The notes beneath the pieces were generated by a model. It worked only from the letters and a program-made list of their open reading frames with translations, was not told the origin of the DNA and did no database searches. The position numbers and the translations under genes are program-made. A DNA stretch of 64,000 bases from Lotus japonicus (Eukaryota > Streptophyta > Magnoliopsida > Fabales > Fabaceae), in assembly GCF_012489685.1 (NCBI RefSeq), contig NC_080044.1, positions 25,772,369 through 25,836,368 on the forward strand. Direction: 5' to 3'. Positions 6,911 to 62,327 of the stretch are shown in pieces (position 1 is the stretch's first letter; each line of letters starts with the position of its first letter).

Positions 6911-7064
6911 CTACTAGCCACCGCCACCACCCTTCACCGCCGCCATCACCATCTTCACCACAACCACAACGACCACGACTACCACCACCGCCTCCCTCCA
7001 ACACCTCCTCCAACACCACCACCATCACCGCTGCTACCTCCACAGCCACCACCACTCTCCAATA
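6911..7064. repeat. CAC-rich microsatellite, left half
   Basis: Low-complexity CCACCG, CCACCA and CATCAC tracts. The same type of sequence resumes at 21302 after element A, and the bases CAATA occur both at 7060-7064 and at 21297-21301. This was therefore one locus before the insertion. Apparent proline-, threonine- or histidine-rich ORFs in it are artefacts of the repeat. Confidence 0.85.
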
Positions 7065-7989
7065 TGTAACACCCCGATTTCGGTGGCGTCACTTTAGTAA
7101 CTCAAGAATAAAATAAAGCGGAAAAGCAGGTATTTTTTTTCGTTTTGTTTAAATAAAAAGACTTGTCGATATAAAGACTCATCCCAATCGCGATTAATAT
7201 ACAATACAAGCACACCCTTGCTGTAACTAAAAACATCGTCACGAGTGTCCTCAAGTGACGGAAAGTCACTTCAAGTAACTAAAAGTATTGCCCAACGGCA
7301 AACAAGTGCGACTCGTAAATAGAGTCATAAGTTTTATAAATACAGTCCTCCGAAGAGTAAGTCAGCCCAAAACGGCTTCCAAAAAAACTTCTTACGTCCG
7401 ACTACTCCATGCGATTCCCATCTACGGAGAACCACACCGAAAGCAACCTGTCGGAAACTACCCTGTCCCAAAAGTACAAATGACGAATCAGAGCTATGAC
7501 ACTAACACCCAACCTTAGTAGGCTCTAAACACCCATACCCTATACTTCCATCATCGACCCTCATCTGGTCATGCATTCAGTCCGGGTCCTCGTCGAAAGC
7601 TTCAGTAATAGTCATTACGCTTCTGGTCCTCCTCGAGTGACGAGTCATCACGAATCAACTGACGGACGCCTAGCAGCAGGCAGACCGCCCAAACACAAAC
7701 ATACAAACAAAGCCAAGGCGCTAGGGTCAACTCACGGAATAAAATAGATAATACAACCAACATGTGAAGAATAAGGGGGTATATATATATATATATATGT
7801 TGTATATATACATGTAATTTATGTATTGCCTACCCTAAGGTATATACATAACATGTTATCAAAGCTCTAATAAACAATTCGATATCTGCTATCTCAACAG
7901 ATCAATAAACAATGGCTCAAATAATCATTAAGGGTGCATGTATGCATGCAATGTCAATTCAGAAGATTATCCCCACAATTAGGCATGTC

Positions 7990-8472
7990 AAGTCGATCCA
8001 ACCCATCGGGTTGAACATACGGACTTGCACACGCAACTCCCACCATTAGGCATGTCGAGTCGATCCAACCCATCGGGTTGAACATACGAACTCGCACACG
8101 CAACAACTGACAACGCCAAGTCGGTTCACTCAAAAGAGTCGAACATACGGACGTTGCGCGTGTCCAATGACTATCGCCGAATCGATCCAATCCCTCGGAT
8201 TGAACATACGGATCCGCGCGTGTCGAAAAGTTGTCGCTGAATCGATCCAATCCCTCGGATTGAACATACGGATTCATGCGAGGTAAAATGGCAATCGCTG
8301 AATCGATCCAATCCATTGGATTGAACATACAGACTCACGCGTGCCTGAGTGACTACCGCCGAATCGATCCAATCCATCGGATTGAATATACGGATCCGCG
8401 CGTGTCAACAATTATTGCCGAATCGGCCCAACCCGTCGGGTTTGGACATACGGATTCGCGCCGCAAAGTCGA
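7990..8472 (-). repeat. About 61-bp hairpin-forming tandem array, eight units
   Basis: Units start at 7990, 8057, 8118, 8179, 8239, 8300, 8361 and 8420, mostly 59-61 bp apart. Each has a core inverted repeat followed by GAACATACGGA or a near variant. The stem is CAATCC/GGATTG in four units and CAACCC/GGGTTG in the first two. The last has AACCC/GGGTT and the third an ACTC/GAGT stem flanked by GTTC/GAAC. Loops are 3-4 bases. The stem pairing is kept although its sequence changes. Confidence 0.9.
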
Positions 8473-10383
8473 AGATACACTCTTGGTGTCCTTCGATAAA
8501 GTCCCAGTCTTTCGACCGTCCCAAAACCCCGAACGTATGCATAATGCAATATAGTTAACCAAACATCGAATCGTCCTCACACGTACGAGTTTAACCACAA
8601 ATCTCAATTTAAAAGTACCCGAAGGTCAAAGTCATCTTGCGACTAGGCTGTGAAAAGCCGGAGTACATATTGCACTCAGTGACATTTCCATGGTCACTAT
8701 GGTTCATCCCCGTGACGACCATCAAATCATCTCAAGTTCAAGGCTTTTCGACTATTTCCCGTTTTTCACAATCATTTCCAACTCTTAAATTTTCCTAAAG
8801 GTCTCGTTAATTAATCAAAGCATTTCAAGTTGAGTTAATCAAGTTATGAGGTTTATTATCGAAATCCAAGTTCCATAAATTCTCAAGTTCCCAATTCCAA
8901 CTATTCAAAGTTTCCCAAATCCCCCAAATATAATCCCCGGGAAAAGTCTAAGTGTTCAAAGAGGGCAAGATCTCAGACCTCAGGTCAGGACCTGCCTAGG
9001 GTTTCCTCTCAACCCGAAAGATCAACTAAATCAACTCAAATGTCCTACGCTCCGCAATCGCGTCAACACGCACAATTCGATATCTATTCCACAATATTCA
9101 GCTCTAAAGAGCGATGCAATAATAATATGGTGCGGAAATCATAAGACAGAAACCAGTAAACGGCCGAAGCCTCTCAGAAAACGGAGACACACGTCTCATA
9201 TAAGTTCACTCGGCCGAAGCCTCCAGAAAACATTTTCCAATTCAAAGCGATAAACAATATCCAAGCAATATTCATTATCAAGCAATAATCAAGTCGAAGT
9301 TATCGACACCTACAATACAAATAGCTAGTAAGTAAGTTGCCCTAACCTCGAGTTGCTCACAAGCTTGTTCAGTCAATCCCAAAGTTTCCACAATTGAACC
9401 TTTGAGCAAACAAAGCAATAATGAATCAACACAAGTCGATACAGTCGAAACAATCCTAACTAATGTTCGACAAAGCTCAAGAAGCTTCAGAGTACAACAT
9501 TTAGGCACGAATGGAAGGGCTTCCCCCGAATGGATGAGTTTTGACTCGATTCAAGTTTTGTACAAAAAAACTTTATTCGCTAAAACGTGCATAACTCGAG
9601 CTACAGAACTCGGAATGACACGAAATCGGAGCCAAAATTTCGACAATTGAAAAAGCTACGCAATGACTCAGGTCATAGAGACCCAAAAATTATTTTTGGA
9701 CACAGTACCCTAACAAATAGGTTTTGGCCACTCTCAAAAATAGGGTTTCCGAACTTTTTCTTCGATCTAAATCAATTCCTAGGTATTCTTAGGCGATATC
9801 TAGACCAGGGAAACTCTCAGAAAAATTATCGGATCGAAAACTGTCGCAGGGGTATTTTGGTCAATATTTTTAGCTCGGAAACTCAAAATCAGAATTTCGA
9901 AAAACAAATTAAATGGGGTTGATCCTAACGACATTGATAACAACTAATCCTACTAAAGCTAAGCTCAATCTAGAGTTTTTAACCCAAAGAACGAAGCTTT
10001 GGCTCAAAATGGGTATTTCGAGCAGATTTAAAACTCGGCGGCAATTCGGCGAGATTCAGCAGAAAACAACCGGATATTCATGCTCTAGAGCACGTAGGCA
10101 ATAAGTTTAGACACTGAAATCAAGTTATTTGGACAATTTTACAAAAAGCTCAAAACTTTGAGCACAGAAAGACATAGAGAAAAGCGACAGAATTTACGAT
10201 CAGAGGTAAGGAAAAGCATCAGTACCTCGAGGCCTACGCGTAGCAACGAACAGAACGACGATCGGTCAAGAATTGGCAAAATCACTTTTCTCCTCCTCCT
10301 CCTCTTGAAGCCACGGCCGTGTGTGTGTGTGTCGTGATATTTTTTTTTGTTTTTTTTGTTTTTTTTTTTTTCATTTTTCAAAC

Positions 10384-10392
10384 TATATATAG
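10384..10392 (-). promoter_or_regulatory. LTR TATA motif, left copy
   Basis: Minus-strand CTATATATAG in the LTR, at the same place as 19330-19338 in the right copy and similar to 27045-27053 in the family-B LTR. In this 3' copy it would point out of the element. Confidence 0.55.
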
Positions 10393-11095
10393 GAAATGGA
10401 AAATGCGGAAAAATGAAAATTTCGCGATTCCGATTTTTCCTACTGATTCCAACGTATTTTAGACACGATAATCTTCCCGCTGAATCTTCTAATTCTTCAA
10501 AGAAATATCAGTATGATTTTTGGTTTTCGAGGCTTGTTTTTAATGTTTACCAGCATAAAATGCACTTTATGGTTTTGACCTCGGATGTGGAAACTTCCTT
10601 CTGAAGAAAGATTTGGAACGTCGATTAGAGTGGGCGTACGAGGATGAAATCTTTATTTGAAGCTCCGAACAGAAAAAGTCTTCATCGTCCGTTGATTTTA
10701 GGTTTCTTGAACTATCAGTGTTTTAGTTTCGGCAAACTTCCGAGTATTGGAATTTGACGTTTGTACAACCCAGGGTTTCGTATCGAAACGCTTGTCATGG
10801 AAAGAATTAAGAGAAATTCTGACATTCCTCTGAATATTTTTGGAATTAGTTCCTATAGTGGTTTAAGGGTAAATTAATCGTTTACTAACGCTCTTGCCCT
10901 AGACGTCAGCGAATAAGACTCACGCTATAACTTATATCGACTTTAATACTATTCTTAGCCTTTTCCTGAACTTTCTCCTTCATAAATTAATTCCATTCGA
11001 TAAACTTGTTCAGGTGTTCCTTCACGTTACATCAAACTAATCGTGAATAGTAATTTTATTCGATTTATTCTAAGCTTAAAAACTTGGGTCTCACA

Positions 11096-13368
11096 TTACT
11101 ACCCTCCAAAAAGAAAGTTTCGTCCTCGAAACTTAGGGTTCAGTAAAAACTCCGAATATTATTCCTTGGTCTCTTCCTCTAACTCCCATATAGCACCATG
11201 AAATCAATCTTCTACTTAGTCACCATTCAAATTAAATCTCGACTTGAGCCTTAATACCTAGTGCATCACTAGACTCATTCCCTTTAACATCAACTTATCA
11301 ACAACTTATAACCTAATCTTCATCTTAATATCTAACAAACCATTATTGACATCTCTTTCTTCAAAACTTTCCTCACTCAAACCAATTTACACTTATTGAA
11401 ATCCCTAACACTTCACACAAATAAGGACTCATCCCCTAGAAGATCAACTTATAACTATACCCCAAGGGACTTAACTAGTCATTTTATCATTCGATCTTTC
11501 AACCTTCCGAGATATAACCGTTATCGTAACCGCTAACACCACTAAATTCCTTATGCGTACATGAATCTCAGCTCACTAGGTCAACCTTAGCCCAAGGATT
11601 CTCATTCAACTTAGTAAAATTCATTTGTTAACCCTAGTATGCATCATCAAGACCATAACAAAGTTCCATTCACTCTTAGACTCTAAGAAACTTGTCCAAA
11701 TATGATACCTCAAGTATTCATCTTGATACTAACACTTTCCTTTCTGTAACTCGATCACCATCTCGTCAATCAACTTCTTAATCTCTCAATCAAATTCTGA
11801 CAACTTCGAGTCCTACGTACCTTAGACAGAGATTCATAGATTTAAAACCTAAACCTTCACCAAGGTCCTCTAATGACCTTTAATCCTTCAATACTTCTTA
11901 AATGAATATCCATTTCTTAAAACCATAACTCCTTCGCTTACACAAACGACCTGACAAGTGTTGTCATGCTTTCACATTCACGACTTGATCCTGACATTCA
12001 CAATCATAACTTATTATACTAACATCATTCAAATCTTATCACATGGCTCTTTATGTCAGCAACCTCATAATCAACATCAATCGATCACCAACTTATAACC
12101 AGCCTTGACACTCTACACAACTCAGATTCCATTTGCTTTAAGATCGCTCTTATACTACACCTCAATGGTCTTATCCCGAAACTCATCTTCAGATCTCCAA
12201 TCTTCTAAGATTTAACTCCCATTGTCACACCTACAACCATAAGATCTCCTACTCGTACGTGATTCTCAACTCTCAAGGTCAATCTTAACCCTAAGATTTC
12301 AATCCAACTTAGTAAATCTCACTTAGTAATCTCAGCAGGTTTCTCTGAAATCCATATCAACAATCTCAAGTATTCAACTTATGCTAAAACTTTCTTTTTC
12401 TAACTTAATCATTAATTCAACACTTAGTCACTCCAGCAAACACCTGACAATTCTCTAAGTCTTCACATCCAAGTTAAAATTCATGGGCTTAAAATCTAAA
12501 CTTTTACCTAGCTTGCATCGGTAATGTCCTTTAACACTTCAACACTTTTCAAGTGAAAATTCATCTATTAAGACTATAATATCTCCACAAATAAATCAAG
12601 CGCTTAGCGAAACTTATTCCTCGAACTCGACTAACAACAATCTAGTTCACAATTAATTCTTCTCAATCTTGTTATCATCAAGTAATCATCTATAACCTGA
12701 TATTAAATCCAACCTATTTAGTCTCTAACAATTCCACTCAGAAATCACATCACCTATGACTTCATGATTCCGAGAAAATACTTAATATTTTTTTTCCAAC
12801 ATTAAATCTCTTGACTTAGTCTACCTCTACTTGGAGTAATCACACGAACTAACCAATTAATGTCTATACGACACTCATCGACTTCCAAAGATTTAAATCT
12901 TAATCTTTTACAATCAAGTGCTTAACATAACTTTCCTCCCAAATTCGACTAATCCTCGATCAATTCAAATTCATCTTACACATCCTTCTATCAAAGTCCA
13001 TTACCAGCTGTGATTCCGAATATCACCCCCTCAATATTAAGTTGATCAGGCCTAATACATCGAAGGTGAAAATTTAGAAAAACCCACTGGAACAGTCAAT
13101 GAGTTCCTATCATCCAGTAGTCACAATTATCCCGACATCCAATCCTTAACGGTCCCGCTACGGAACTACGCACCCTCAAAATAACACGTATACTACCCAT
13201 AAGGAATCTCTCTAAGATTCGTTCTTCAGCTACTAGCTTCCTTATAATCGCATCGGTGGAAGACTACTTTCTAGACTTAGTGTGTTATTCTAAACCTCGT
13301 GTAACTTCTATAGTTTTAAACACGAGCAACAATCAAATAAATTCTTAGTAGGTGTAATAACTATAAGG
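11096..13368 (-). other. Element A internal region without pol; degenerate repeats
   Basis: This occupies the place where protease, RT, RNase H and integrase should be, but I see no RT or integrase motif in any frame. The first bases carry the conserved AAAGTTTCGTCCTCGAAACT-type 3' motif. The rest is AT-rich with diverged internal repetition. The block around 11500-11950 resembles 12200-12600 (for example AACTTAGTAAA at 11608 and 12306), a period of roughly 650-700 bp, with a possible third partial unit near 12820-12960. This is a non-autonomous, gag-only layout. Confidence 0.7.
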
Positions 13369-15978: not shown

Positions 15979-16913
15979 CAATGTAACACCTCGATTTCGG
16001 TGGCGTCACTTTAGTAACTCAAGAATAAAATAAAGCGGAAAAGCAGGTATTTTTTTTTCGTTTTGTTTAAATAAAAAGACTTGTCGATATAATGACTCAT
16101 CCCAATCGCGATTAACAGCGATTAATATACAATACAAGCACACCCTTGTTGTAACTAAAAACATCGTCACGAGTGTCCTCAAGTGACGGAAAGTAACATC
16201 AAGTAACTAAAAGTATTGCCCAACGACAAACAAGTGCGACTCATAAATAGAGTCATAAGTTTTATAAATACAGTCCTCCGAAGAGTAAGTCAGCCCAAAA
16301 CGGCTTCCAAAAAAACTTCTTACGTCCAACTACTCCATGCGATTCCCATCTACGGAGAACCACACCGAAAGCAACCTGTCGGAAACTACCCTGTCCCAAA
16401 AGTACAAATGACGAATCAGAGCTATGACACTAACACCCAACCTTAGTAGGCTCTAAACACCCATACCCTATACTTCCATCATCGACCCTCATCTGGTCAT
16501 GCATTCAGTCCGGGTCCTCGTCGAAAGCTTCAGTAATAGTCATTACGCTCCTGGTCCTCCTCGAGTGACGAGTCATCACGAATCAACTGACGGACGCCTA
16601 GCAGCAGGCCGACCGCCCAAACACAAACATACAAACAAAGCCAAGGCGCTAGGGTCAACTCACGGAATAAAATAGATAATACAACCAACATGTGAAGAAT
16701 AGGGGGGTATATATATATATATGTTGTATATATACATGTAATTTATGTATTGCCTACCCTAAGGTATATACATAACATGTTATCAAAGCTCTAGTAAATA
16801 ATTCGATATCTGCTATCTCAACAGATCAATAAACAATGGCTCAAATAATCAATAAGGGTGCATGTATGCATGCAATGTCAATTCAGAAGATTATCCCCAC
16901 AATTAGGCATGTC

Positions 16914-17395
16914 AAGTCGATCCAACCCATCGGGTTGAACATACGGACTTGCACACGCAACTCCCACAATTAGGCATGTCGAGTCGATCCAACCCATCGG
17001 GTTGAACATACGAACTCGCACACGCAACAAGTGACAACTCCAAGTCGGTTCACTCAAAAGAGTCGAACATACGGACGTTGCGCGTGTCCAATGACTATCG
17101 CCGAATCGATCCAATCCCTCGGATTGAACATACGGATCCGCGCGTGTCGAAAAGTTGTCGCTGAATCGATCCAATCCCTCGGATTGAACATACGGATTCA
17201 TGCGAGGTAAAATGACAATCGCTGAATCGATCCAATCCATTGGATTGAACATACAGACTCACGCGTGCCTGAGTGACTACCGCCGAATCGATCCAATCCA
17301 TCGGATTGAATATACGGATCCGCGCGTGTCAACAATTATTGCCGAATCGGCCCAACCCGTCGGGTTTGGACATACGGATTCGCGCCGCAAAGTCG
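16914..17395 (-). repeat. Hairpin tandem array, second LTR copy
   Basis: The same eight-unit, about 61-bp array as 7990-8472, with only a few substitutions. The two arrays are copies of one template, so they are not independent evidence of conservation. Confidence 0.9.
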
Positions 17396-19329
17396 AAGAT
17401 ACACTCTTGGTGTCCTTCGATAAAGTCCCAGTCTTTCGACCGTCCCAAAACCCCGAACGTATGCATAATGCAATATAGTTAACCAAACATCGAATCGTCC
17501 TCACACGTACGAGTTTAACCACAAATCTCAATTTAAAAGTACCCGAAGGTCAAAGTCATCTTGCGACTAGGCTGTGAAAAGCCGGAGTACATATTGCACT
17601 CAGTGACATTTCCATGGTCACTATGGTTCATCCCCGTGACGACCATCAAATCATCTCAAGTTCAAGGCTTTTCGACTATTTCCCGTTTTTCACAATCATT
17701 TCCAACTCTTAAATTTTCCTAAAGGTCTCATTAATTAATCAAAGCATTTCAAGTTGAGTTAATCAAGTTATGAGGTTTATTATCGAAATCCAAGTTCCAT
17801 AAATTCTCAAGTTCCCAATTCCAACTATTCAAAGTTTCCCAAATCCCCCAAATATAATCCCCGGGAAAAGTCTAAGTGTTCAAAGAGGGCTAGATCTCAG
17901 ACCTCAGGTCAGGACCTGCCTAGGGTTTCCTCTCAACCCGAAAGATCAACAAAATCAACTCAAATGTCGTACGCTCCGCAATCGCGTCAACACGCACAAT
18001 TCGATATCTATTCCACAATATTCAGCTCTAAAGAGCGATGCAATAATAATATGGAGCGGAAATCATAAGACAGAAACCAGTAAACGGCCGAAGCCTCTCA
18101 GAAAACGGAGACACACGTCTCATATAAGTTCACTCGGCCGAAGCCTCCAGAAAACATTTTCCAATTCAAAGCGATAAACAATATCCAAGCAATATTCAAT
18201 ATCAAGCAATAATCAAGTCGAAGTTATCGACACCTACAATACAAATAGCTAGTAAGTAAGTTGCCCTAACCTCGAGTTGTTCTGGTCTCGCGGTGCAGGT
18301 CTCGCTCACAAGCTTGTTCAGTCAATCCCAAAGTTTCCACAATTGAACCTTTGAGAAAACAAAGCAATAATGAATCAACACAAGTCGATACAGTCGAAAC
18401 AATCCTAACTAATGTTCGACAAAGCTCAAGAAGCTTCAGAGTACAACATTTAGGCACGAATGGAAGGGCTTCCCCCGAATGGATGAGTTTTGACTCGATT
18501 CAAGTTTTGTACAAAAACACTTTATTCGCTAAAACGTGCATAACTCGAGCTACAGAACTCGGAATGACACGAAACTGGAGCCAAAATTTCGACAATTGAA
18601 AAAGCTACGCAATGACTCAGGTCATAGAGACCCAAAAATTATTTTTGGACACGGTACCCTAACAAATAGGTTTCGGCCACTCTCAAAAATAGGGTTTCCG
18701 AACTTTTTCTTTGATCTAAATCAATTCCTAGGTATTCTTAGGCGATATCTAGACCAGGGAAACTCTCAGAAAAATTATCGGATCGAAAACTGTCGCAGGG
18801 GTATTTTGGTCAATATTTTTAGCTCGGAAACTCAAAATCAGAATTTCGAAAAACAAATTTGATGGGGTCGATCCTAACGACATTTATAACAACTAATCCT
18901 ACTAAAGCTAAGCTCAGTCGAGATTTTTTAACCCAAAGAACGAAGCTTTGGCTCAAAATGGGTATTTCGAGGAGAATTGAAACTCGGCGGCAATTCGGCG
19001 AGATTCAGCAGAAAACAACCGGATATTCATGCTCTAGAGCACGTAGGCAATAAGTTTAGACACTGAAATCAAGTTATTTGGACAATTTTACAAAAAGCTC
19101 AAAACTTTGAGCACAGAAAGACATAGAGAAAAGCGACAGAATTTACGATCAGAGGTAAGGAAAATCATCAGTACCTCGAGGCCTACGCGTAGCAACGAAT
19201 AGAACGACGATCGGTCAAGAATTGGCAAAATCACTTTTCTCCTCCTCCTCCTCTTGAAGCCACGGCCGTGTGTGTGTGTGTCGTGATATTTTTGTTTGTT
19301 TTTTTTGTTTTTTTTTTCATTTTTCAAAC

Positions 19330-19338
19330 TATATATAG
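19330..19338 (-). promoter_or_regulatory. TATA motif of element A 5' LTR
   Basis: Minus-strand CTATATATAG roughly 3.3 kb upstream of the internal domain in coding sense, followed by the CTCCTCCTC/GT-rich leader area. This is the likely core promoter for the gag transcript. Confidence 0.55.
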
Positions 19339-20041
19339 GAAATGGAAAATGCGGAAAAATGAAAATTTCGCGATTCCGATTTTTCCTACTGATTCCAACG
19401 TATTTTAGACACGATAATCTTCCCGCTGAATCTTCTAATTCTTCAAAGAAATATCAGTATGATTTTTGGTTTTCGAGGCTTGTTTTTAATGTTTACCGGC
19501 TTAAAATGCACTTTATGGTTTTGACCTCGGATGTAGAAACTTCCTTCTGAAGAAAGATTTGGAACGTCGATTAGAGTGGGTGCACGCGGATGAAATCTTT
19601 ATTTGAAGCTCCGAACAGAAAAAGTCTTCATCGTCCGTTGATTTTAGGTTTCTTGAACTATCAGGGTTTTAGTTTCGGCAAACTTCCGAGTATTGGAATT
19701 TGACGTTTGTACAACCCAGGGTTTCGTATCGAAACACTTGTCATGGAAAGAATTAAGAGAAATTCTGACATTCCTCTGAATATTTTTTGAATTAGTTCCT
19801 ATAGTGGTTTAAGGGTAAATTAATCGTTTACTAACGCTCTTGCCCTAGACGTAAGCGAATAAGACTCACGCTATAACGTATATCGACTTTAATACTATTC
19901 TTAGCCTTTTCCTGAACTTTCTCCTTCATAAATTAATTCCATTCGATAAACTTGTTCAGGTGTTCCTTCACGTTACATCAAACTAATCATGAATAGTAAT
20001 TTTATTCGATTTATTCTAAGCTTAAAAACTTGGGTCTCACA

Positions 20042-21084
20042 TTACTACCCTCCAAAAAGAAAGTTTCGTCCTCGAAACTTAGGGTTCAGTAAAAACTCCG
20101 AATATTATTCCTTGGTCTCTTCCTCTAACTCCCATATAGCACCATGAAATCAATCTTCTACTTAGTCACCATTCAAATTAAATCTCGACTTGAGCCTTAA
20201 TACCTAGTGCATCACTAGACTCATTCCCTTTAACATCAACTTATCAACAACTTATAACCTAATCTTCATCTTAATATCTAACAAACCATTATTGACATCT
20301 CTTTCTTCAAAACTTTCCTCACTCAAACCAATTTACACTTATTGAAATCCCTAACACTTCACACAAATAAGGACTCATCCCCTAGAAGATCAACTTATAA
20401 CTATACCCCAAGGGACTTAACTAGTCATTTTATCATCCGATCTTTCAACCTTCCGAGATTTAACCGTTATCGTAACCGCTAACACCACTAAATTCCTTAT
20501 GCGTACATGAATCTCAGCTCACTAGGTCAACCTTAGCCCAAGGATTCTCATTCAACTTAGTAAAATTCATTTGTTAACCCTAGTATGCATCATCAAGACC
20601 ATAACAAAGTTCCATTCACTCTTAGACTCTAAGAAACTTGTCCAAATATGATACCTCAAGTATTCATCTTGATACTAACACTTTCCTTTCTGTAACTCGA
20701 TCACCATCTCGTCAATCAACTTCTTAATCTCTCAATCAAATTCTGACAACTTCGAGTCCTACGTACCTTAGACAGAGATTCATAGATTTAAAACCTAAAC
20801 CTTCACCAAGTTTGGTCCTCTAATGACCTTTAATCCTTCAATACTTCTTAAATGAATATCCATTTCTTAAAACCATAACTCCTTCGCTTACACAAACGAC
20901 CTGACAAGTGTTGTCATGCTTTCACATTCACGACTTGATCCTGACATTCACAATCATAACTTATTATACTAACATCATTCAAATCGTATCACATGGCTCT
21001 TTATGTCAGCAACCTCATAATCAACATCAATCGATCACCAACTTATAACCAGCCTTGACACTCTACACAACTCAGATTCCATTT
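20042..21084 (-). mobile_element. Second, partial copy of element A internal 3' end
   Basis: Matches 11096-12134 almost base for base, with a 4-bp insertion near 20810 and a few substitutions. It stops at a junction with LTR sequence at 21082-21084, where both parents share TTT. No coding capacity. Confidence 0.93.
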
Positions 21085-21296
21085 ACTAACGCTCTTGCCC
21101 TAGACGTAAGCGAATAAGACTCACGCTATAACTTATATCGACTTTAATACTATTCTTAGCCTTTTCCTGAACTTTCTCCTTCATAAATTAATTCCATTCG
21201 ATAAACTTGTTCAGGTGTTCCTTCACGTTACATCAAACTAATCGTGAATAGTAATTTTATTCGATTTATTCTAAGCTTAAAAACTTGGGTCTCACA
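21085..21296 (-). mobile_element. Third LTR of element A, truncated
   Basis: Matches the last 213 bp of the LTR (10883-11095), ends GGTCTCACA and is followed by the CAATA duplication. The first 3.8 kb of this LTR, plus the adjoining internal sequence, is deleted. Confidence 0.92.
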
Positions 21297-24033: not shown

Positions 24034-24930
24034 TGTAACACCCCGATTTCGGTGGCGTCACTTTAGTAACCAAAAGTAAACCTAATGCGGAAAAACGTGA
24101 AATATTTTTTTTCGATAATAACTAAGACAAGACTGAATTAAATAAACCCAACAATAACAAAATCAGAACTAATATACAATATATAAACAGCCCCCGCTGT
24201 AATAGTAACCTCGTCACGAGTAAACCTCCAGTGACGGAAAGAAAAGTGTAGCGCCCGAAGGCAAAATGTACAACCAAATCTAAAGGTAAGTGTCCGCAAC
24301 ACTATCCCTCAAAACTGAGAATAAGCTGGCCCATCGGCCCGAAACAAGACCTCCTAAGTCCAACCAACTCTCTGTGATTCTCGTAAAGAACCACACAAAA
24401 AGCTATAGGTGGGAAACTACCCTGTCCCAAAAGAAACAAATGATGTTCAGAGCTAAGACTCTACTCCTACACTAATCCCATCTCGAGGAGCTCACACCAG
24501 CACTAAGACCTACATGCTAGCGTGGTCGTCGCCCGAATCTGAATTCAGAACGACCTAGTCTAAGTACACCATCCGTCCTCCTCTCGCTACCGCGATACGC
24601 TCCAGTTTCTGCATCTCAACCCTAGTTCCTCCGGAAGGATGAACCATCATGAATCAGCCCGCCAAAGACATCTGACAAAGGGCGTTTGTTCGCCAAAGCA
24701 CACACAGAAGACGCGAGGGTCAACTCCAAAGAATTATGTAAATAATAGCACCAATAAATATAAATAAGATAATAGCCACTTAGGCTTATAACTAGGGATA
24801 ACATCCTAGGGTTGCATATTTCCACAAAGAATATAACGACTGTAAATCACAGTTAACATGCATCAAGTAGAACTAACAAGTATCAAACACACTCATCATG
24901 TAGTCAGATCAGCAAAAAAACCCGGATAAC

Positions 24931-25055
24931 GTCACTCTGCTTGGCGACGGAACAAAACAACAACATCACTCTGCTTGGCGACGGAACAAAACAACAACGT
25001 CACTCTGCTTGGCGACGGAACAAAACCACAACGTCACTCTGCTTGGCGACGGGAC
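24931..25055. repeat. 34-bp tandem repeat, four copies
   Basis: Units beginning RTCACTCTGCTTGGCGACGG start at 24931, 24965, 24999 and 25033, an exact 34-bp period. Same satellite as 317-416 in opposite orientation. Confidence 0.92.
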
Positions 25056-25362
25056 AAACCAAAGGTATTGCCACTTAAAGGCTGGGCACCTCGAGACGGT
25101 CGTAACACTAGCCTCGTGTTTAACCATTTCTGCTCGGGCGTCACTTATCACCTTTGGCTATAGTCAAGACGGTACAAACTCTACATGGTTTGACCATTTC
25201 TGCTTGCTATGCCGAACATCAACAGGCACGATACAACTCTACATGGATGATCGTTACCTCCTGTTGTGCCAGGTATAGTCAGGACCGATCCAACTCTGCA
25301 TGGCTGATCGTTACTTCCTGCTATACCGAAGTACTCTGCTTGGCACTTCATAACAACACATA

Positions 25363-25512
25363 GCTGCTCCGACAGCACAAGAGTATCAAATACTCGGGAA
25401 CTGTCAATTCCCCGGACTTATCCCCAGGATAGCCCAACAACATAGCTGCTCCAACAGCACAACAACAAACGCTGCTCCAACAGCACGACATCAAACGCTG
25501 CTCCAACAGCAC
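25363..25512. repeat. 26-bp GCTGCTCCAACAGCAC repeat
   Basis: Copies at 25363 (one mismatch), 25445, 25471 and 25497; the last three are exactly 26 bp apart. Each core can fold as GCTG/CAGC around a short loop, so this LTR also carries hairpin-forming repeats. Confidence 0.85.
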
Positions 25513-27044
25513 AACAACGACATACTCAACACTTGGATCCGACGACACTCCTCGTTTTCCAAAATTAAGATTTCACTTCCAATGCCTTCCTTCGAGGTTG
25601 TTATCATTACTTAAAGATTTAGAGGTTATTTAAGGTCTTATGAGTTTTCTTTATAAAATAGATTCCATTTTGTCTTATCGCAAGCCTTATACATTTGCAG
25701 GATCTCCCAATCCCAAGTCGCTTCCAGAGGAGGTCTCGATCCACTAAACAAAATTAAGGCCCGAACCTCGTTCGTCCTATCAAACTTTCTCCAAAACTCT
25801 CAAAATAAAATCGGCATGACCTGCCCGCTATTCTCACCATTCAGAATCTCAAATTCCAGTACAGAGCATATTTAAATCATCACAATCAACAACATGTCAT
25901 ATATCAATAAATCGCATCATAAACACTTAGCACTTAGCATATGAAGCATGCACCACACATCCTAGATTACCCACATAGCACATAGCATGTAAGTCAATCT
26001 TCAAAAACATTCAGTAGATGAATCATCTACATTGTCAGCCGAAGCCTCAGAAAACATTTTCAATCACACAAAATCTCAGTGCATAAACAGTAAACAATGT
26101 CGAAACATCGACCCTAAGCATTAACTAGAGATTCAGTGAGAAGCCCTCACCTGAAAGATCTCCAGAACGATCAATTAGTGCTTCCTCGCACTCAAAGTGT
26201 TGCTCCTCGGGAAATTCCTCAAAAGTTCCTTTAAAACAAAATCACAGAAATACTATCAGAATCTATCGAAAACTAAGTTATCGATACGTACTAAGGTTAC
26301 TCGAAGTAATCTATACTCTAAGGTACGATAATCTAGCGCGAAAGACAAGTTTTCGGAAAAAGGAAATTTCTTCCTCCCCCTTAATAGGGCTCGACCACTT
26401 TGGCTAATTATGGGGCTCGATTTTTCTTCGATCAAACTTGGTTCCTATGCTTTCATAAGCCGTAACTAAGGGTATTCTGAACTCGGAAAAATTATCGGAT
26501 CAAAAACTGTCGCAGGGGTATTTTGGTCATGATTTTTAACTTAGGATTTTCAAAACTGAAATCCCAAAAATAAAATTTTGCAGGGACGTCACTAACGACG
26601 TTTATGACAACTAATCCTACTAGCACTAAGCTAAGGCGATAGTTTTCAGCCTAGAGGTTGGAACTTTACTCAAAAACTACATAAAATGGGTATTTTAGGT
26701 TCAAATTGATTCCGGCGGAATTCCGGCGACATAACGGAAAATCTAATCCGGCAGAAGTGATCTTGGGCACATGTAGAAGAGGTTTAGAATCAGAAATGAA
26801 AGATTCAGGATAGTTTTGCAAAAACCCATAAACTATCCACTCAGAAAACTCTACAGAAAAGCTATGGAAAAAGCGATCGGAGGTAAGGATTAGCGACTAT
26901 ACCTCGAAGCCTTGAAGCAGCAACTGATTAATCAACGATCAAGCAAGGTTTGAACAAAAACTCTTCTTCCTTCTTCCTTGGATGAGCTCGCGGATTTGAG
27001 GAGAGAAAATGGAGGAAAATTTGAACTTTTCTTCCTTTCTTTGC

Positions 27045-27053
27045 TATATATAA
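27045..27053 (-). promoter_or_regulatory. TATA motif of the family-B solo LTR
   Basis: Minus-strand TTTATATATAG, at the equivalent place to 10384 and 19330 in family A, close to the start of a CTTCTTCCTTC-rich leader. Confidence 0.5.
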
Positions 27054-27776
27054 AGGTTGGAAATTCGCGGGAAAAAGAAAGTTTCGCGAATCTGATTTTT
27101 ACGGCGTCATTCTCCATGAATTCTAAGATAGGTTTTGGCAAAGGAATTCCTAAGATAAGAAGATGTCTCCTTGTATTTTTGGCAACTAATGCAAAGTCGG
27201 TGCAAAGTCGGTGTAAAACTATTTTACCCGATAAGTTGCTTTTTGCCTCGAATGTCGGAATAGAAAACTTCCTTCGGAAGAAAGATTGAAATCATCAAGA
27301 GAAATGGGTGTACGCGTGTAGAATATTCATTTGAAGCTCTGAATAGATAAAGTCTTCATTGTCGAGAAATTCTAGGGTTTTGAAATACCAGGGATTCGGT
27401 TTCGGCAAACTTCCGATGATTGGAATCGGACGTTCGTAGATCCTAGAGTTTCGCCTCGAGACGATCGTGATATATGGAAAAAGAGAAGTTCTAACATTTC
27501 TCTGAAGATTTTTGGAATTAACTGCCATCGTGCCTAAAAGTGAAAATTAGCTATATACTAGGGTTTCTGACCTAGGTTTAAGCGTAAAACGTTCGTGCTA
27601 TAACTTTTATCGATCATAATGCAATCCTTGAACTTTTCCTGAACTTTCTCCTTCATAAATATATTTCATTTAATAAACTTTCGTTCAGGTTTCCCTTCAC
27701 ATTACATCAACCCTAATCGTAAATGGAAATCTCTTCCACTTATTCTAAGCTTAAAATCTTGGGTCTTACACTTACA

Positions 27777-37224: not shown

Positions 37225-37226
37225 AT

Positions 37227-38249
37227 TGAAGGTATGAAAATCGGTAGAAAGGGGGGGTTTGAATAACGTTTTCAAGATAAAACTTCCACCTTAAAGATTT
37301 TGAACAAATCTTTCGAGAACTAAGTGCTTAAAATAAGAGATAGAAAAGCACACAAGGATTTTTATCCTGGTTCACTTGATAAATCCCTCAAGCTAATCCA
37401 GTCCACCCGTTAAGGTGATTTCTTCCTTCTTAGAATGAAGGCAATCCACTAATCAGGTAAGTGTTACAACTGCACTTGAAACCTACAAGTGACTAACAAT
37501 TACACTGACTTAGCTCACACTAAGATTCACTCTCTTAGTCTTCTCTAGGATCCGATCAACCTTGATCTCCTAAAGGTAACTAAACAATTGTTTAAGAAAG
37601 AATGTTTACAAGGGATTTGCTTCTGAAAAGCTAATAGTAAACACAATGAATTCAGATGAAAGAATGCTTAGAAGGTTTTTGAATATAGCTTGCGCGTGTG
37701 TAATTCTTCCAACCGCATCTTTCAATCTTCAGCCTCTATTTATACTCCAAGGATTAGGGTTTGAACGCCGCATGGAAATGCTACCGTTGGAGGGCAGTTC
37801 TGGAAATTCCAGCTTCTGCTGTGGCTGAGAATGTTAGGTAGGTCGTCAGGATAGTACATTTGCTTTTGTACTTGGATAGTGACTTGACCTTTAAACCTAG
37901 GAGACTTCTGATCAGGGGAATGCTTCATGTTGGAACTTGTGAAGCCGGTTGATCAGAGTCAGAGGGAAAGCACAGATCCTCTAACCGTTGTATCTTCTGA
38001 TTCTGAACTCAGAGGGAAGTACACGGTCTTCAGAGTCATCTTGCTTCTGGACATCAGAGTTTCCACTTTTCAGCTTCTGGATCTTCAGAGTCTTCTACAC
38101 CATCAGAACATCTGAACCTTCAGAGTTTCTTGGTTGTCAGAACTTCTGGATCTTCAGAACTTCAAGTGACTGAGTCCATATCAGAGCTTGTGTGACTTCA
38201 GATCTTCTGAAGCATTTCAACTGTTCAGAGTGAACATAGATGTTGCGAA
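37227..38249 (-). mobile_element. Element C2 5' LTR, main segment
   Basis: From TGAAGGTATG (LTR 3' edge in coding sense) to GCGAA, where C1 is inserted. The remaining 185 bp lie at 49286-49470. A minus-strand TATAAATAG motif sits at 37744-37736 and the U5 hairpin at 37293-37313. It is very similar to the 3' LTR at 22828. Confidence 0.92.
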
Positions 38250-46867: not shown

Positions 46868-47260
46868 CTAGAATGGAGGATCTCTCCTCATTCTTCTGCA
46901 CTCCTGGCGCTGCTCTGACCTATCCTTCTCCAGACGCTCCAGTACATGCTGGATGTTGCTGAGCCTGATCTTTAGCTCATCCCTCTCCAGAATCTCTTCT
47001 GAAGTCTTGAGCTTCTCTTCCAAACTCTCTTTCTCTTCCAGCAACTTGAGTTCAAGCCGGCTGAGTTCTTGCACCTCCTCCACGAAGGCAAGAAATTCCT
47101 TCAGGTCTCTCTCCAACTCTGGACGCAGGTCCTCTTCCAGCAGTGTCCGTGTCAGCTCCGCGATGGTAGTTGCACCCTCTGGATGCCTGATGTTCAGGAA
47201 CAAGTCCTCTTCAAAGGCCTTCTTCCTCAGCTCTTCTAGTGCTACGTTGTATGATGCCAT
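46868..47260 (-). CDS. Opposite-strand coiled-coil ORF, C1 copy (130 aa)
   Basis: Intact 130-codon frame on the strand opposite to gag-pol, starting ATGGCATC at 47260. The product begins MASYNVALEELRKKAF and contains FLNIRHPEG near residue 21. It is then almost entirely Glu/Leu/Lys/Arg helix and ends CRRMRRDPPF. It aligns without gaps to the C2 copy, with mostly conservative changes. No known domain is recognised; a small coiled-coil partner or regulator protein is possible but not shown. The TATA motif is at 47320, 60 bp upstream. Confidence 0.75.
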   Translation of the reverse strand: MASYNVALEELRKKAFEEDLFLNIRHPEGATTIAELTRTLLEEDLRPELERDLKEFLAFVEEVQELSRLELKLLEEKESLEEKLKTSEEILERDELKIRLSNIQHVLERLEKDRSEQRQECRRMRRDPPF

Positions 47261-56173: not shown

Positions 56174-56728
56174 GCAAATGCATCAGAAGAAGCTGCCACA
56201 ACTTCTGAACCTTCACGTCAGAAGAAGAGCAGAGTTATAGCCTCTCATCCTGAAGAATTGATTCCGGGAGACAAAGATGAACCGGTCAGAACCAGATCCG
56301 CTTTCAAGCCTTCTGAAGAGACTCTTCTAAGTTTAAAGGGCTTAGTCTCTCTGATTGAGCCAACCTCTATTGATCAAGCTCTTCAAGACAAAGATTGGGT
56401 TCTGGCCATGGAAGAAGAACTGAATCAATTCACCAAGAATGATGTTTGGAATCTTGTCAAGTCACCTAAGGACACACACATCATTGGAACCAAGTGGGTT
56501 TTCAGAAGAAAAAAAACTCAAAGAGAAGAGAGAAGTAGTCGCCAGGCTTGTTGCACAAGGTTACAGTCAACAAGAAGGCATTGATTACACTGAAACCTTT
56601 GCTCCTGTATCAAGGTTAGAAGCTATAAGGTTGCTGATTTCATTCTCTGTGAATCACAACATTGTGCTTCATCAAATGGATGTCAAGAGTGTTTTCCTCA
56701 ACGGATATATCTCTAAAGAAGTATACGT
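56174..56728 (+). pseudogene. pol: Element D reverse transcriptase, 5' part
   Basis: [22 protein letters not shown], then WVFRRK, where an A-rich indel near 56512-56530 shifts the frame. [21 protein letters not shown] and [21 protein letters not shown] follow. The sequence is cut by element E at 56728, before the YVDD motif. Confidence 0.88.
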
Positions 56729-57953
56729 TGAAGGTATGAAAAACGATAGAAAGGGGGGTTTGAATAGCGTTTTACAACTAAAAACTCAACCCACTTGAGA
56801 TTTAAATAAATCTCTTCGAACACCAAAGATAAGAGTGCAGAGATAAGAGATAAGGAAAACACACAAATGATTTTATCCTGGTTCACTTGATAAATCCCTC
56901 AAGCTAATCCAGTCCACCCGCTAAGGTGATTTCTTCCTTCTTAGAATAAAGGCAATCCACTAATCAGAGTTTTGTTACAACTGCACTTGCTACCTGCAAA
57001 GTGACTAACAATACACTGACTTAGCTAACACTAAGATTCATTCTCTTAGTCTTCTCTAGGATCCGATCAACCTTGATCTCCTAAAGGTAAAACAAACAAC
57101 TGTTTGAAAGTATTGGGTTTACAAATAAGTGCTTCTACAAAAGCTGATAGTAAACACACTTAGTTCTATTTGAAGAAAGATTGCTAAGAAGATTTTAAAT
57201 ATTTCTTGCGCGTGAGTAAGTTTCTTAGGCGGCATCTTTCAATCTTCAGCCTCTTTATATACTCCAAGGATTAGGGTTTGAACGTTGCATGGAGATGCTA
57301 CCGTTGGAGGGCAGATCTGGAATTTCCAAGTTCTGCTATGGCTGAATCAGTTAGGTAAGGTCGTCAGGAATGGTACAATTGCTTTTGTACTTTGGATAGC
57401 GACATGACCTTCAACCTTGTTGACTTCTGATCAGAGGATGCTTCATCTTGGAACTTTTGAAGCTTGATGATCAGAGTTAGAGGGAAGCTAAGATCCTCTG
57501 ACCTTTGTACCTTCTGCTTCTGGATTCAGAGGAGAAGTACTTGGTCTTCAGAGCCAGCTTACACTTGGACTTCAGAGTCTTCACTACTCAGCTTCTGATA
57601 CTTCAGAGCGTCTGATCCTTCAGAGCATCTGATCCTTCAGAGCGTCTGATCCTTCAGAGCGTCTGATTCTTCAGAGCTTCTAGTGAGCTGAATCCATATC
57701 AGAGCTTTGTAATCTTCAGATCTTTTGAAGCTTGATCTACTGTTCAGATTGAACATAGTACGTGCGAAAGCGTTGCGGAGGTTACTCTTTGAGCATTGTG
57801 CTTCTGATTTTTGTGAGATAGGTCCAGAGTCTTGGCCTGTCATTTGAACACTCAGAAAACAATGTTAGAGTACCGCAATTGTTCATACTTAATCGTTAAC
57901 TTGTAATCATCAAAACATAGAATTGTACTACTAGATCAAAACTTGATCTTACA
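56729..57953 (-). mobile_element. Element E 3' LTR
   Basis: 1225 bp from TGAAGGTATG to GATCTTACA. U5 hairpin at 56797-56814 with a changed but still paired stem; minus-strand TATATAAAG near 57252-57260; an extra 17-bp tandem repeat at 57601. Confidence 0.9.
57601..57681. repeat. 17-bp tandem repeat in the E LTR
   Basis: CTTCAGAGCGTCTGATC repeats at 57601, 57618, 57635 and 57652 with single changes, then a partial copy at 57669. It is an expansion of the short CTTCAGAG word that is scattered through all family-C LTRs. Confidence 0.92.
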
Positions 57954-57969
57954 ATCTCCCCATTTTTTA
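57954..57969 (-). other. Polypurine tract of E
   Basis: Minus-strand AAAAAATGGGGAGATT next to the LTR edge; one G shorter than in C1 and C2 and with a T after the A run. Confidence 0.8.
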
Positions 57970-58588
57970 TGATGACAAAACCAAGTATTTTGATGAACTA
58001 ATCTTAACCAATAAACTGAATTCACTCAGAGTTTTAGAGAATAGAGAAAAACTTATCCTGAGGTGAATGGTTTATGTTGCTAATTCTAAATCCAAGTCAC
58101 AGCTTGATTCTGAGCTTAGCTCCCCCTGAATCTAAGACTTAATGAAAATATTAGTAATATCTAGATTCTGAGCTAAATCATAAGAGTTTAGAGTGATAAT
58201 TTATGACATAGACAAAGTGAGATAATCAGAGCGCATAATTATCAAGAGCAGTGTAAGGGTATCAGAGTCAACTAGTATCACTTCAGAGGAAGTGAAAATG
58301 TATTCCTTGTATTTGCCCAGTGACACATCTATGGTCATACTGGTGGAACTCTTAAATTCTCCAAAAGAAAAAGAAATCACACTAACACAACTTACACATC
58401 AAAAACTGGGTTATACTCCCCCTTTTTGTCATAAGCAAAAAGCATGGGGTGTGAAAAACTTAGCTTGAAGTACAAGGTACTCCCCCTTAGAGAAGGTCTA
58501 AGTTTAAAAAGATGGAGAACCGAAAATAAAGATTAATGAAAACGTATTTAATTTATGCATATGCAGAAAGTTAAATGAAGAGGTTGAA
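57970..58588 (-). other. E 3' untranslated region with extra polypurine tracts
   Basis: No gene. Minus-strand GGGGGAG tracts at about 58121, 58416 and 58483 match those in C1 and C2 in order. Confidence 0.7.
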
Positions 58589-58696
58589 CGTTTACCACCG
58601 GCCAAGGAGTTAAGGTAAACTTCTGTTACCAATAAATAATCCTCGAGAAACTGCTTCAGCATTAACTTCTGGAGACTGAACTGAGCTTATAAATAG
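58589..58696 (+). promoter_or_regulatory. Promoter module of the opposite-strand ORF (E copy)
   Basis: CGTTTACCACCGG at 58589-58601, CCTCGAGAAACTG at 58641-58653, TATAAATAG at 58688-58696, ATG at 58751. Spacings are 52, 47 and 63 bp. The sequence between the motifs is much more diverged than the motifs. Confidence 0.72.
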
Positions 58697-58750
58697 CGGT
58701 TAAACCATATCAGTCTTCACATCTCATTTTCTCTTGAGCTTAAGAATTCA

Positions 58751-59137
58751 ATGGCATCCTTCATTACAAGTATCGAGCAGTTGAGAAGGAAAGCCTTTGA
58801 TGAACTCTTCATCAATATACGCCATCCAGAGGAACCGAGCGTTTATACCCTTACAAACCAGCTATTAGGCATGAGGCTAAGTCCTGAAATGGACAACATC
58901 CTTAGGAGCTTCCTCAGATTCGTGGAGGAATTGCAAGTCTGCTTTCAGAAGGAACTGGAGCTGTATGAGGAAATCAGAGCAATAGAGGCGGCTCTGGAGA
59001 CGGTGGCGGTGGGTCCTCAGAGGCAGGAGCTGCGCCAGAGCTTAGTCCTCTTAGAGTATAGGCAACATCGTCTGGAGCTTGAGAAAGCAACGATGCGTAG
59101 GCAGTGTAGAGAAATGAGGAAAAATCCTCCCTCTTAA
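58751..59137 (+). CDS. Opposite-strand coiled-coil ORF, E copy (128 aa)
   Basis: Intact 128-codon frame against the direction of E's gag-pol. It keeps the MAS start, the ...QLRRKAF and NIRHPE motifs, the FVEELQ block, a Glu/Leu/Arg helix and the RQCREMRKNPPS end. More than half of the residues differ from the other two copies and small length changes are multiples of three. That pattern is what is expected of a protein under selection. Function unknown; no secretion or membrane signals. Confidence 0.75.
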   Translation: MASFITSIEQLRRKAFDELFINIRHPEEPSVYTLTNQLLGMRLSPEMDNILRSFLRFVEELQVCFQKELELYEEIRAIEAALETVAVGPQRQELRQSLVLLEYRQHRLELEKATMRRQCREMRKNPPS

Positions 59138-59499
59138 TGTAGCAATGCTTGTATGCAATTTCTTATTAATAAAAAGATGCAATTTCTTATTAATAAAAAG
59201 ATTTGGTTAGTGGTTAATGAGTATGCATGAAATAAATTTTATGATAAACAAGTATTATGCAACACATAATGAATATGATAACAGAATAACACGAGAATAG
59301 ATTAAGAAACAAGGTTCAAAACAGACAGACGAGAAAAAGAAAAACATGATATAGGAAAAGAAATCAACAAGGATAAAAACAGAAAAGAAGAGATTTCCTA
59401 AAACTAGGGTGTCCTCCGAAGCAGTTCTGTGCACATATCTTTCAAACTCTGAAGGAGAACTTCATGAGAGTTGAGCCTTTGTTCAATGATATCTATCCT
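59138..59499. other. Spacer between opposite-strand and env-position ORFs (E)
   Basis: AT-rich; a 29-bp sequence beginning GCAATTTCTTATTAATAAAA is repeated in tandem near 59154-59204. Codons just right of the env-position stop belong to its conserved tail in other frames. No separate gene. Confidence 0.5.
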
Positions 59500-60664: not shown

Positions 60665-61650
60665 CTAGGGGGTGAAGGAGGAGAGGTTGATGATTAACTG
60701 GTGTGGGTTCAGGATTGGTTTGATCATGAATTGCATCAAGCAAATTAAATCATCATCTGAAATAACAACAAACTTACTTGAAGCTCTAGCTGCAGATCTT
60801 GTGACTCTGGTAGAGGGTGCAGGTCTAGTTGGCTCCTGAGTTGGTTGCAGATGAGTGACTTGAGTCACAATCCTGACCTTCTTGGCCTTCTTCTGAGGCG
60901 GTGGTTCATCATCATCATGATCATCACCATCAGAGGGATCATTCTCCTCAGAGGCTTCAATTTGTTTTCTCTTGCTCTTCCTCTTCCTGGGAAATTCAAA
61001 GTCAGGAGGATTTGGGAGAGTCCTGAAGAATTCATCCACATCAATTTCAAAGCCTTGTCGTCTCAAATCATCAAGGTAGATTCTGATTGCCTCTGGGTCA
61101 TCAGCCTTGGACCAGAGGGGGTAGTCCTTCACATGAGTTCTTCTTCTTGGTCTTGCATCAGCAGCTTTGACCTCAGCCTTTGTCTCTATCAGGCCCATTC
61201 TCTTCATGGGAGTAGGAGTGAAGACATCCCCAGTAATTGTTGTCAAGTCTTCAGTGCATCCCAATTGTCGCAAATCCTTTATCAGTTTGCTTTCAATGAA
61301 GAAGTCAGAAAGCAATATGCCAAATGGTATGTATTTGATTGCAGACTTGGGTGAAGCAGTGGTTCTAGACTTCTTGATGCACTCCTTCAGATAGGAGAAG
61401 AGAAAGTAGGGCAGACAGACTTTGCGGTGCTCCTTGATGAAGAAAAGTAACACCTTCTGGGTAAAGTTGATGTAGTCTGGAGAGCTTCCCTTTGGCCTTT
61501 GATTTATACAGTTTAGCAGAATCTTGTGCCAGATTCTCAATTGAGGATGAAGATCCTTGGTCTTGCAGTCATTTTTCCCTGGCTTCCATGTAGAGTAGAG
61601 AGCCATGTTGACTGCCTCTTTGGTCTTTAGTTTCACTTTTGATACCTGCA
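60665..61650 (-). pseudogene. E env-position ORF, middle part joined to pol by deletion
   Basis: Begins around KVKLKTKEAVN, about 150 residues into the C1 ORF. It continues through WHKILLNCINQRPKGSSPDY, FLFSYLKECIKKSRTTAS, KYIPFGILLSDFFIE and a nuclear-localisation-like PPPQKKAKKVRIV. Upstream it abuts RT directly at a TTGATCA word; RNase H, the spacer and the N-terminal third are missing. It ends in a frame change before 60618. Confidence 0.8.
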
Positions 61651-62327
61651 ATTGGTTTTTGATCAACTTATATTCCCAGAAAGTACTTGAGTTCTCCCAT
61701 CATACTCATTTCAAATTCAGCCTGCATCATCTCAGAAAATTCTTTGCAAAGAGATGGATTAGCTGATCCAAATATAATATCATCAACATAAATTTGCACA
61801 ATTAAGATATCATCTTTGTAAGTTTTGCAGAAGAGAGTTGTATCTACTTTACCCCTTACAAACTCATTTTCCATAACGAATGAGCTGAGTCTCTCATACC
61901 ATGCTCTGGGAGCTTGCTTCAAACCATAGAGAGATTTCTTCAATTTGAAAACATGGTCAGGGTTCTTCTCATCTTCAAAACCAGGAGGTTGGTGCACATA
62001 TGCTTCCTCTGAGATGTATCCATTCAGGAAGACACTCTTGACATCCATCTGATGAAGGATTATGTTGTGATTCACTGAGAAAGAGATCAGCAGTCTGATT
62101 GCTTCTAATCTTGCTATTGGAGTAAATGTTTCAGTATAATCTATTTCTTCTTGCTGACTGTAGCCTTGAGCAACTAGTCTTGCTTTGTTTCTGACTACAT
62201 CTCCTTTTTCATTTAGCTTGTTTCTGAATACCCATTTGGTTCCAATGATGTGAGCACCTTGAGGTTTCTTGACTAGGTTCCAAACATTATTCTTGGAGAA
62301 TTGATTCAGTTCTTCTTCCATTGCCAA
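61651..62327 (-). pseudogene. pol: E reverse transcriptase region
   Basis: RVT_2 domain from [19 protein letters not shown] with [43 protein letters not shown] and YVDD (61790-61779). It ends at YFLGI with a stop at 61668-61670, just before the deletion junction, so the connection and RNase H domains are absent. Confidence 0.87.

Follow-up and report, generated by a model that had tools for sequence, protein, structure and literature searches.

Grande and RIRE2 are Ty3/gypsy elements. Antisense accessory ORFs have been described for Ty3/gypsy retrotransposons (PMC7264820; PMC11963269; PMC4093653), and those of maize Grande (gene23), RIRE2, Retand and PvRetro13 (aORF-3R) lie between pol and the 3' LTR, as does the frame described here; they are kept in most copies of their families (PMC7264820), whereas the retention that we report is among best-matching copies. 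Maize gene23 has an upstream promoter of its own, from which it is transcribed, and encodes a nuclear protein (PMC7264820); by analogy, it is the closest counterpart of the gene considered below. As regards the own-promoter trait of aORF-3R genes, what the present sequences show is conservation of putative core promoter motifs. The hosts Retand and PvRetro13 are Ty3/gypsy elements (PMC11963269; PMC4093653), whereas the present host is Ty1/copia. In Retand, 97% of the clusters have antisense ORFs that code for TRP28 (PMC11963269), which is absent here, and the antisense proteins of 15 gypsy families of bean are 211-939 aa long (PMC4093653), compared with 128-130 aa in the present case. HBZ of HTLV-1 and other retroviral antisense genes, which code for a nuclear regulator (PMC11963269), are likewise antisense; the HTLV antisense promoter is situated at the 3' end, inside the 3' LTR (PMC7264820), whereas the motifs here lie in the internal region, and general searches with our antisense ORF gave no HBZ-type match.

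The elements studied here share an env-position ORF, AGGGGGAG octamers and an AT/TG site with the SIRE/Maximus group (soybean SIRE1, bean pvRetro3 and pvRetro4, Lotus LjRetro3). In the portions of the literature searched, no antisense ORF was reported for SIRE1, pvRetro3, pvRetro4 or LjRetro3. LjRetro3 was described with two ORFs (PMC4093653), the extra ORFs named for SIRE and Sirevirus elements in the available parts of four papers are sense only (PMC6317226; PMC2829016; PMC3414828; PMC4093653), and the word 'antisense' is absent from the main text of three of these (PMC6317226; PMC2829016; PMC3414828). A broad survey set a minimum length of 250 codons for the extra ORFs that it counted (PMC6317226), a cut-off by which a gene of 130 codons would be missed. 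Extra ORFs have also been reported in sunflower Athila and Tekay (PMC11728184). Searches of open-licence papers found no antisense accessory gene for Copia or Sirevirus elements, which is consistent with the view, taken in an earlier note on this DNA, that antisense genes are known from gypsy elements and not from this copia lineage.

Antisense frames in three Sirevirus-type elements

The window, a stretch of 64,000 nt of Lotus japonicus DNA, contains three elements (C1, C2 and E) that each carry one antisense ORF with both an ATG and a stop codon (Table 1). The earlier note had listed these three ORFs on the strand opposite to the element, and all of them were found; in C1, C2 and E alike the ORF is flanked on one side by the end of the env-position ORF and on the other by the cluster of AGGGGGAG octamers that precedes the 3' LTR, in line with the note, which had placed it between the env-position ORF and the 3' LTR. 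The proteins of C1 and C2 are identical at 100/130 residues, and the E protein is identical to them at 55/128 (C1) and 60/128 (C2), in agreement with the claim that the E copy diverges at more than half of its residues. The MAS start, NIRHPE, FVEE and the CR.MR..PP end were retained in all three proteins, so that the preservation in E of these motifs and of the basic C-terminal end, which had been proposed, could be seen in the alignment. The E ORF differs from the C-type ORFs by two single-codon gaps that leave the frame intact, and the length changes were thus correctly described as frame-preserving. Nei-Gojobori estimates of dN/dS were 0.195 for C1-C2 (dS 0.68), 0.33 for C1-E (dS 1.7) and 0.19 for C2-E (dS 2.6, close to saturation).

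Table 1. Coordinates of the antisense ORFs, their putative transcription signals and associated host-element features
Feature	Element	Position in window	Strand	Remarks
Antisense ORF	C1	46868..47260	-	130 codons; element runs +
Antisense ORF	C2	28551..28943	+	130 codons; element runs -
Antisense ORF	E	58751..59137	+	128 codons; element runs -
TATA box (TATAAAAA)	C1	47313..47320	-	starts 60 nt upstream of ATG
TATA box (TATATAAA)	C2	28492..28499	+	starts 59 nt upstream of ATG
TATA box (TATAAATA)	E	58688..58695	+	starts 63 nt upstream of ATG
Initiator-like CTTCACA	C1	47286..47292	-	predicted transcription start
Initiator-like CTTCACA	C2	28520..28526	+	putative transcription start
Initiator-like CTTCACA	E	58715..58721	+	putative transcription start
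AATAAA poly(A)-like signal	C1	46817..46822	-	downstream of antisense stop codon
AATAAA poly(A)-like signal	C2	28990..28995	+	downstream of antisense stop codon
AATAAA poly(A)-like signal	E	59168..59173	+	downstream of antisense stop codon
gag-pol region	C1	38496..43540	+	four ORFs (gag, zf-CCHC, rve, RVT_2); pol broken by frame change and stop
env-position ORF	C1	43653..46667	+	sense, 1004 codons, open; sub-threshold PF20167 (Transposase_32) match
env-position ORF match to PF20167	C1	43653-46667
env-position ORF match to PF20167	C2	30962-32410
env-position ORF match to PF20167	E	60665-61666
Four AGGGGGAG octamers	C1	47511..48064	+	at 47511, 47575, 47893 and 48057; last followed by AT/TG at 3' LTR
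3' LTR	C1	48067..49280	+
3' LTR	C2	22827..24033	-	split from C2 body by 3.7-kb insert, 24034-27770
3' LTR	E	56724..57953	-

The domains of C1 follow the order Retrotran_gag_2, zf-CCHC, rve, RVT_2, which is the Copia order with the integrase ahead of the reverse transcriptase. The marks given for Sireviruses are an env-position ORF, multiple AGGGGGAG octamers and an AT/TG attachment site (PMC2829016). The window contains 12 octamers versus 1.5 expected, and octamers on the strand opposite to the antisense ORF, at most 1500 nt before its ATG, were found at 68/70 loci. AGGGGGAG-AT-TG is present at the 3' LTR junctions of C1 and C2, the E junction carries an octamer with one base changed, and GGGGGAGATTG (the terminal octamer followed by AT and TG) is present in 51/70 loci. 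By the sequence criteria examined, the hosts are Sirevirus-type Copia retrotransposons, in keeping with the SIRE/Maximus-like assignment made earlier. The antisense ORF does not qualify as an env-like protein in the sense of a sense-strand ORF after pol: it is on the opposite strand, and the env-position ORF is separate. For an older Lotus assembly, 282 intact Sireviruses are recorded in MASiVEdb; their mean age is 0.35 million years, and almost every one carries an ENV-like gene (PMC3414828).

C1 has an uninterrupted env-position ORF, and those of C2 and E are split. As had been claimed for pol, gag-pol is fragmented in C1 and C2, and so is the stretch of it that the window shows for E. Of 1024 aligned sites, 18 differ between the LTRs of C2, which indicates that C2 is young. 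The earlier note had regarded retention of the frame beside a broken pol as non-trivial; three young insertions are insufficient by themselves to establish selection, and it was the genome-wide comparison described below that revealed it.

The env-position ORFs match PF20167 ('putative plant transposon protein') with scores below its curated cut-off of 45 bits (44.1 in C1, 42.9 in C2 and 20.7 in E). The same family was reported for the aORF of sunflower Athila (PMC11728184), and PF20167 may connect env-position proteins of Copia and gypsy elements.

Selection on the antisense frame across the genome

A DNA search of the genome with the C1 ORF gave 2003 candidates (here and below, first-look matches and not counted copies). 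The best 40 of these, window copy included, were scored and showed 99-100% identity across all 393 bases, 31/40 at 100% (rounded), which suggests that the C1 type spread recently; seven of seven C1-like copies (L002-L008) had a complete frame and a TATA box. Protein searches gave 4104 candidates with E, 4353 with C2 and 4194 with P0009, which represents a third type, and among the 150 best scored in each search a stop-free match was observed in 108, 138 and 117, respectively; these fractions are not population estimates because the best matches were scored first, some matches cover only part of the ORF, and the lower matches of the P0009 search overlap the E-type list. Frame disruption in most other elements, which the earlier note had raised against its own proposal, was therefore not seen among the best 150 per search, and conservation extends beyond the locus, as the scored copies are spread over six chromosomes of the same genome.

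The antisense ORF had seven matches overall in the protein database. P0009 is 98% identical to copies in this genome, P0004 and P0005 match sampled copies at 94% and 95% identity, and P0007 is 93% identical to this retrotransposon ORF; the best identities of the others were 88% across 59 residues (P0006), 64% (P0008) and 69% (P0010, against sampled copies). All matches that could be placed trace back to this genome. The protein database searched with the E protein gave zero matches, an ORF profile found no match in viral and prokaryote collections, and a reverse transcriptase piece found none among viral contigs. P0004 and P0007 are filed as Bradyrhizobium sp. TM233; their contigs do not exceed 561 and 483 bases, respectively, and the two entries most likely represent host-plant DNA within a rhizobial assembly.

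We sampled 70 E-type loci (the 30 best, including E of the window, and 40 of the remaining 120) and 40 C-type loci out of 149 others. The antisense ATG was present in 69/70 E-type and 40/40 C-type loci, and the frame was open to the usual stop in 51/70 and 35/40. Two E-type loci with indels (L009 and L034) were excluded from the variant counts. In the 68 ungapped copies, singleton variants comprised 147 nonsynonymous, 48 synonymous and 6 stop changes, close in kind to the 69 : 27.5 : 3.4% expected of random change with transitions weighted 4 to 1, whereas the variants present in at least 10% of the copies comprised 21 nonsynonymous and 44 synonymous changes and no stop (Fisher P 7.6e-10). Variants of intermediate frequency were distributed 85:58:5, and stops were confined to variants in at most 10% of the copies. 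The C-type copies (n=41) behaved similarly, with 75:32:5 for singletons versus 46:61 for shared variants (P 1.0e-4). Because singletons look neutral and shared variants are mostly synonymous, selection must have operated during replication and lapsed after insertion. Based on these comparisons of copies, we conclude that the frame shows codon-level purifying selection during amplification and neutral decay post-insertion; such a pattern is that of a gene which, as judged from the variants, is required during multiplication of the element and can decay freely once a copy has been inserted.

The copies were chosen by protein similarity, which may favour intact frames and synonymous change; however, the singletons in the same copies are neutral, which argues that this sampling bias is small. 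When the 28 closest E-type copies were considered alone, the signal was weak (shared variants 13 N : 17 S), while the 40 copies from further down the list gave a strong one (20:42). For comparison, 50 of these loci were also scored over the 3' portion of the sense env-position ORF, which had 244:81:19 single and 82:85 shared variants, indicating that the antisense gene is constrained at least as tightly. The shared variable sites of the antisense ORF were distributed 13/9/37 over the three codon positions, and the phase control in noncoding DNA gave 20/31/26 at -900..-250 and 30/17/23 at -250..-1; the codon phase rules against an RNA-only function.

Pairwise dN/dS among E-type copies fell from 0.84 at dS <0.05 to 0.17 at dS 0.6-0.9. 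Among 49 C-type copies, C1-like copies included, it was 0.13-0.30 with no rise at the smallest dS (0.18 for the 9 pairs below 0.05, and 0.30 at 0.05-0.1). The median between types was 0.31 (C-E), 0.25 (C-P0009 type) and 0.19 (E-P0009 type), calculated from stop-free copies alone with saturated-dS pairs excluded (2025/2200, 286/308 and 350/350 pairs used) and with 7 of 12 P0009-type loci, the start filter having excluded 5; these 12 loci had been chosen from the stop-free ones in the 33 best rows. The frame is kept between types at a median dS of 1.4-1.8. A ratio near 1, which had been named beforehand as evidence against the gene, was not what we found: the values were well below 1 in the window pairs, within the E and C types, and between types. 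These results indicate that the antisense frame in Copia elements is real and selected and most likely a gene; that it encodes a functional protein we consider very probable.

Putative transcription signals and predicted product

A TATAWW motif at -80..-60 was present in 62/70 E-type loci, whereas each of the other 14 windows of 20 nt from -300 had it in 0 or 1/70. A TATA box was found in 38/40 C-type loci at -80..-50, and 12/12 P0009-type loci likewise carried one, roughly 60 nt ahead of the ATG. Since the copies are related and not independent, the three types, with a median amino acid identity between them of 0.43-0.63, are the real replicates for these motif counts. In the three window copies CTTCACA starts 27-28 nt past the first TATA base, a spacing compatible with plant promoters, and the motif was located within 60 nt upstream of the ATG in 61/68 E-type and 45/49 C-type copies; CTTCACA is a plausible transcription start site of the antisense gene. 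AATAAA was found at most 120 nt past the stop codon in 59/68 E-type loci, versus 3/68 on the opposite strand, and in both C-type copies examined for it, C1 and C2. Upstream ATGs were detected in 5/68 E-type copies (within 60 nt of the start) and 12/49 C-type copies (within 55 nt of the start), and the E start codon has no purine at -3. With these signals in place we propose, with considerable confidence, that the antisense gene would have a promoter of its own and be transcribed from it. A predicted start of the antisense transcript follows from the position of the conserved core-promoter motifs.

The protein has a mass of 15.3-15.8 kDa, with an acidic body (pI 4.5-4.8) followed by a basic tail made up of the last 25 residues (pI 9.3-11.4). 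AlphaFold2 predicted helices at 2-17, 33-41, 47-86 and 90-126, with a mean pLDDT of 78.0 (5 rows) or 75.5 (8 rows); the confidence was good for helices 47-86 and 90-126, which are predicted to form an antiparallel hairpin, and poor for residues 18-29. The residues shared by 97% or more of the 101 intact copies compared include R12, K14, H26, F56-L57, F59, E61-E62, C121-R122, R125 and P128-P129. Pfam gave weak matches alone with the antisense ORF (E 0.08 or worse), and none at E 0.01 or better in 8/8 antisense proteins, the TRP28 domain (PF04195) included. The best match in a sequence search of solved structures was ribosomal protein S8 (E 0.21), and a fold search found nothing at E <=0.001 (best E 0.99 in PDB and 0.16 in BFVD). 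The product had been described as lacking a known domain, and indeed no Pfam, solved-structure or fold match stood out; its role accordingly has to be argued by analogy.

Candidate roles of the gene and its surroundings

The explanation that we favour, and consider likely as a whole, is that these elements carry a selected, probably separately transcribed antisense gene whose product is a nuclear oligomeric regulator. In this model, the selected frame that these Sirevirus-type Copia elements carry, with the env-position ORF on one side and the polypurine tracts on the other, would be a likely separate transcription unit because of the promoter-like and poly(A)-like signals that flank it. The 15-16 kDa product, a predicted helical-hairpin protein, would probably form oligomers in the nucleus and regulate how the element is expressed or replicated, with LTR activity, silencing or incoming DNA as candidate targets. 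We infer the transcription, translation, nuclear site and regulatory role of the gene; the regulatory role is suggested by the separate promoter, by the acidic body with its basic C-terminal tail and by the likeness to maize Grande GENE23. A separate promoter would allow the protein to be made without the LTR promoter, which would suit a regulator better than a particle part. A regulatory or anti-silencing role, as opposed to one in the particle or in integration, nevertheless has in our judgment about an even chance.

One could envisage more specifically that the protein is an anti-silencing factor or RNA-silencing suppressor made ahead of gag-pol expression, like the anti-silencing proteins of Vandal transposons, of which VANC is the named example. 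Promoter motifs distinct from the LTR and a small, acidic, helical product are in keeping with this possibility. Such a role is mentioned for Vandal aORFs in the sunflower study (PMC11728184), but the Pfam, structure and fold searches found no sequence or fold kinship to any such factor, and we regard this reading as unlikely, though worth considering. We give the same modest weight to the idea that the protein serves the particle or the pre-integration stage as a cofactor, binding Gag or integrase and touching nucleic acid with its basic tail. The basic tail and a level of selection at least equal to that seen at these loci for the env-position ORF would fit a cofactor of this kind; a structural part, however, would be expected in the Gag-making sense transcript, and the antisense signals are separate here.

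It is very improbable that the unit works through antisense RNA, by double-stranded RNA or copy-number control, and that the frame is incidental. The transcription signals do oppose the sense RNA, and a role of this sort has been discussed (PMC7264820), but an RNA needs no open frame, and the codon-phased constraint together with dN/dS of about 0.13-0.3 at larger distances requires a protein. Slighter still is the chance that no protein is made and that the frame stays open for other reasons, namely the youth of the elements, an overlap with sense coding or the way copies were sampled: some elements are young, as C2 is, and the genome search ranks the best protein matches first, but the frame is kept between strongly diverged types, shared variants are non-neutral where singletons are neutral, and overlapping sense coding was rejected as the cause since none of the other five frames, sense frames included, was open in the 68 E-type copies. 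In C-type copies one sense frame was open in 13/49 and the other four frames in 0/49.

Returning to the selected, separately transcribed gene that we favour, we lean toward the view that its product founds a protein family not described before and that no earlier antisense accessory gene is known from a Copia (Pseudoviridae) lineage; it would be a stand-alone transcription unit that would have evolved apart from the gypsy antisense genes and that encodes a small helical regulator, with at least three strongly diverged, still-selected types in one legume genome. GAG-POL proteins are considered enough for transposition of LTR retrotransposons (PMC7264820). If our reading is true, an abundant and recently amplified group of Sireviruses requires, or benefits from, an accessory protein that is expressed separately, like complex retroviruses, and Copia and gypsy elements share the same solution, an antisense accessory gene.

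C2 and C1 are arranged head to head (22827-49280); the C2 5' LTR (37226-38249, minus strand) almost abuts the C1 body, and the C1 5' LTR is apparently absent. The 3.7-kb insert listed in Table 1 begins exactly at the boundary between the C2 3' LTR and body, and has stretches in common with two repeated units (7064-12137 and 15981-21087) that are 97.9% alike across 5.1 kb. This duplicated 5.1-kb element has internal tandem arrays of 61- and 67-base units (7972-8461; 16896-17385). C and E are about 80% alike in the noncoding DNA from the putative antisense promoter to the 3' LTR (C1 47310-48067; C2 27771-28505; E 57948-58701), a likeness that exceeds that of the ORF; promoter elements, reverse-transcription signals or exchange between types are possible reasons for it.
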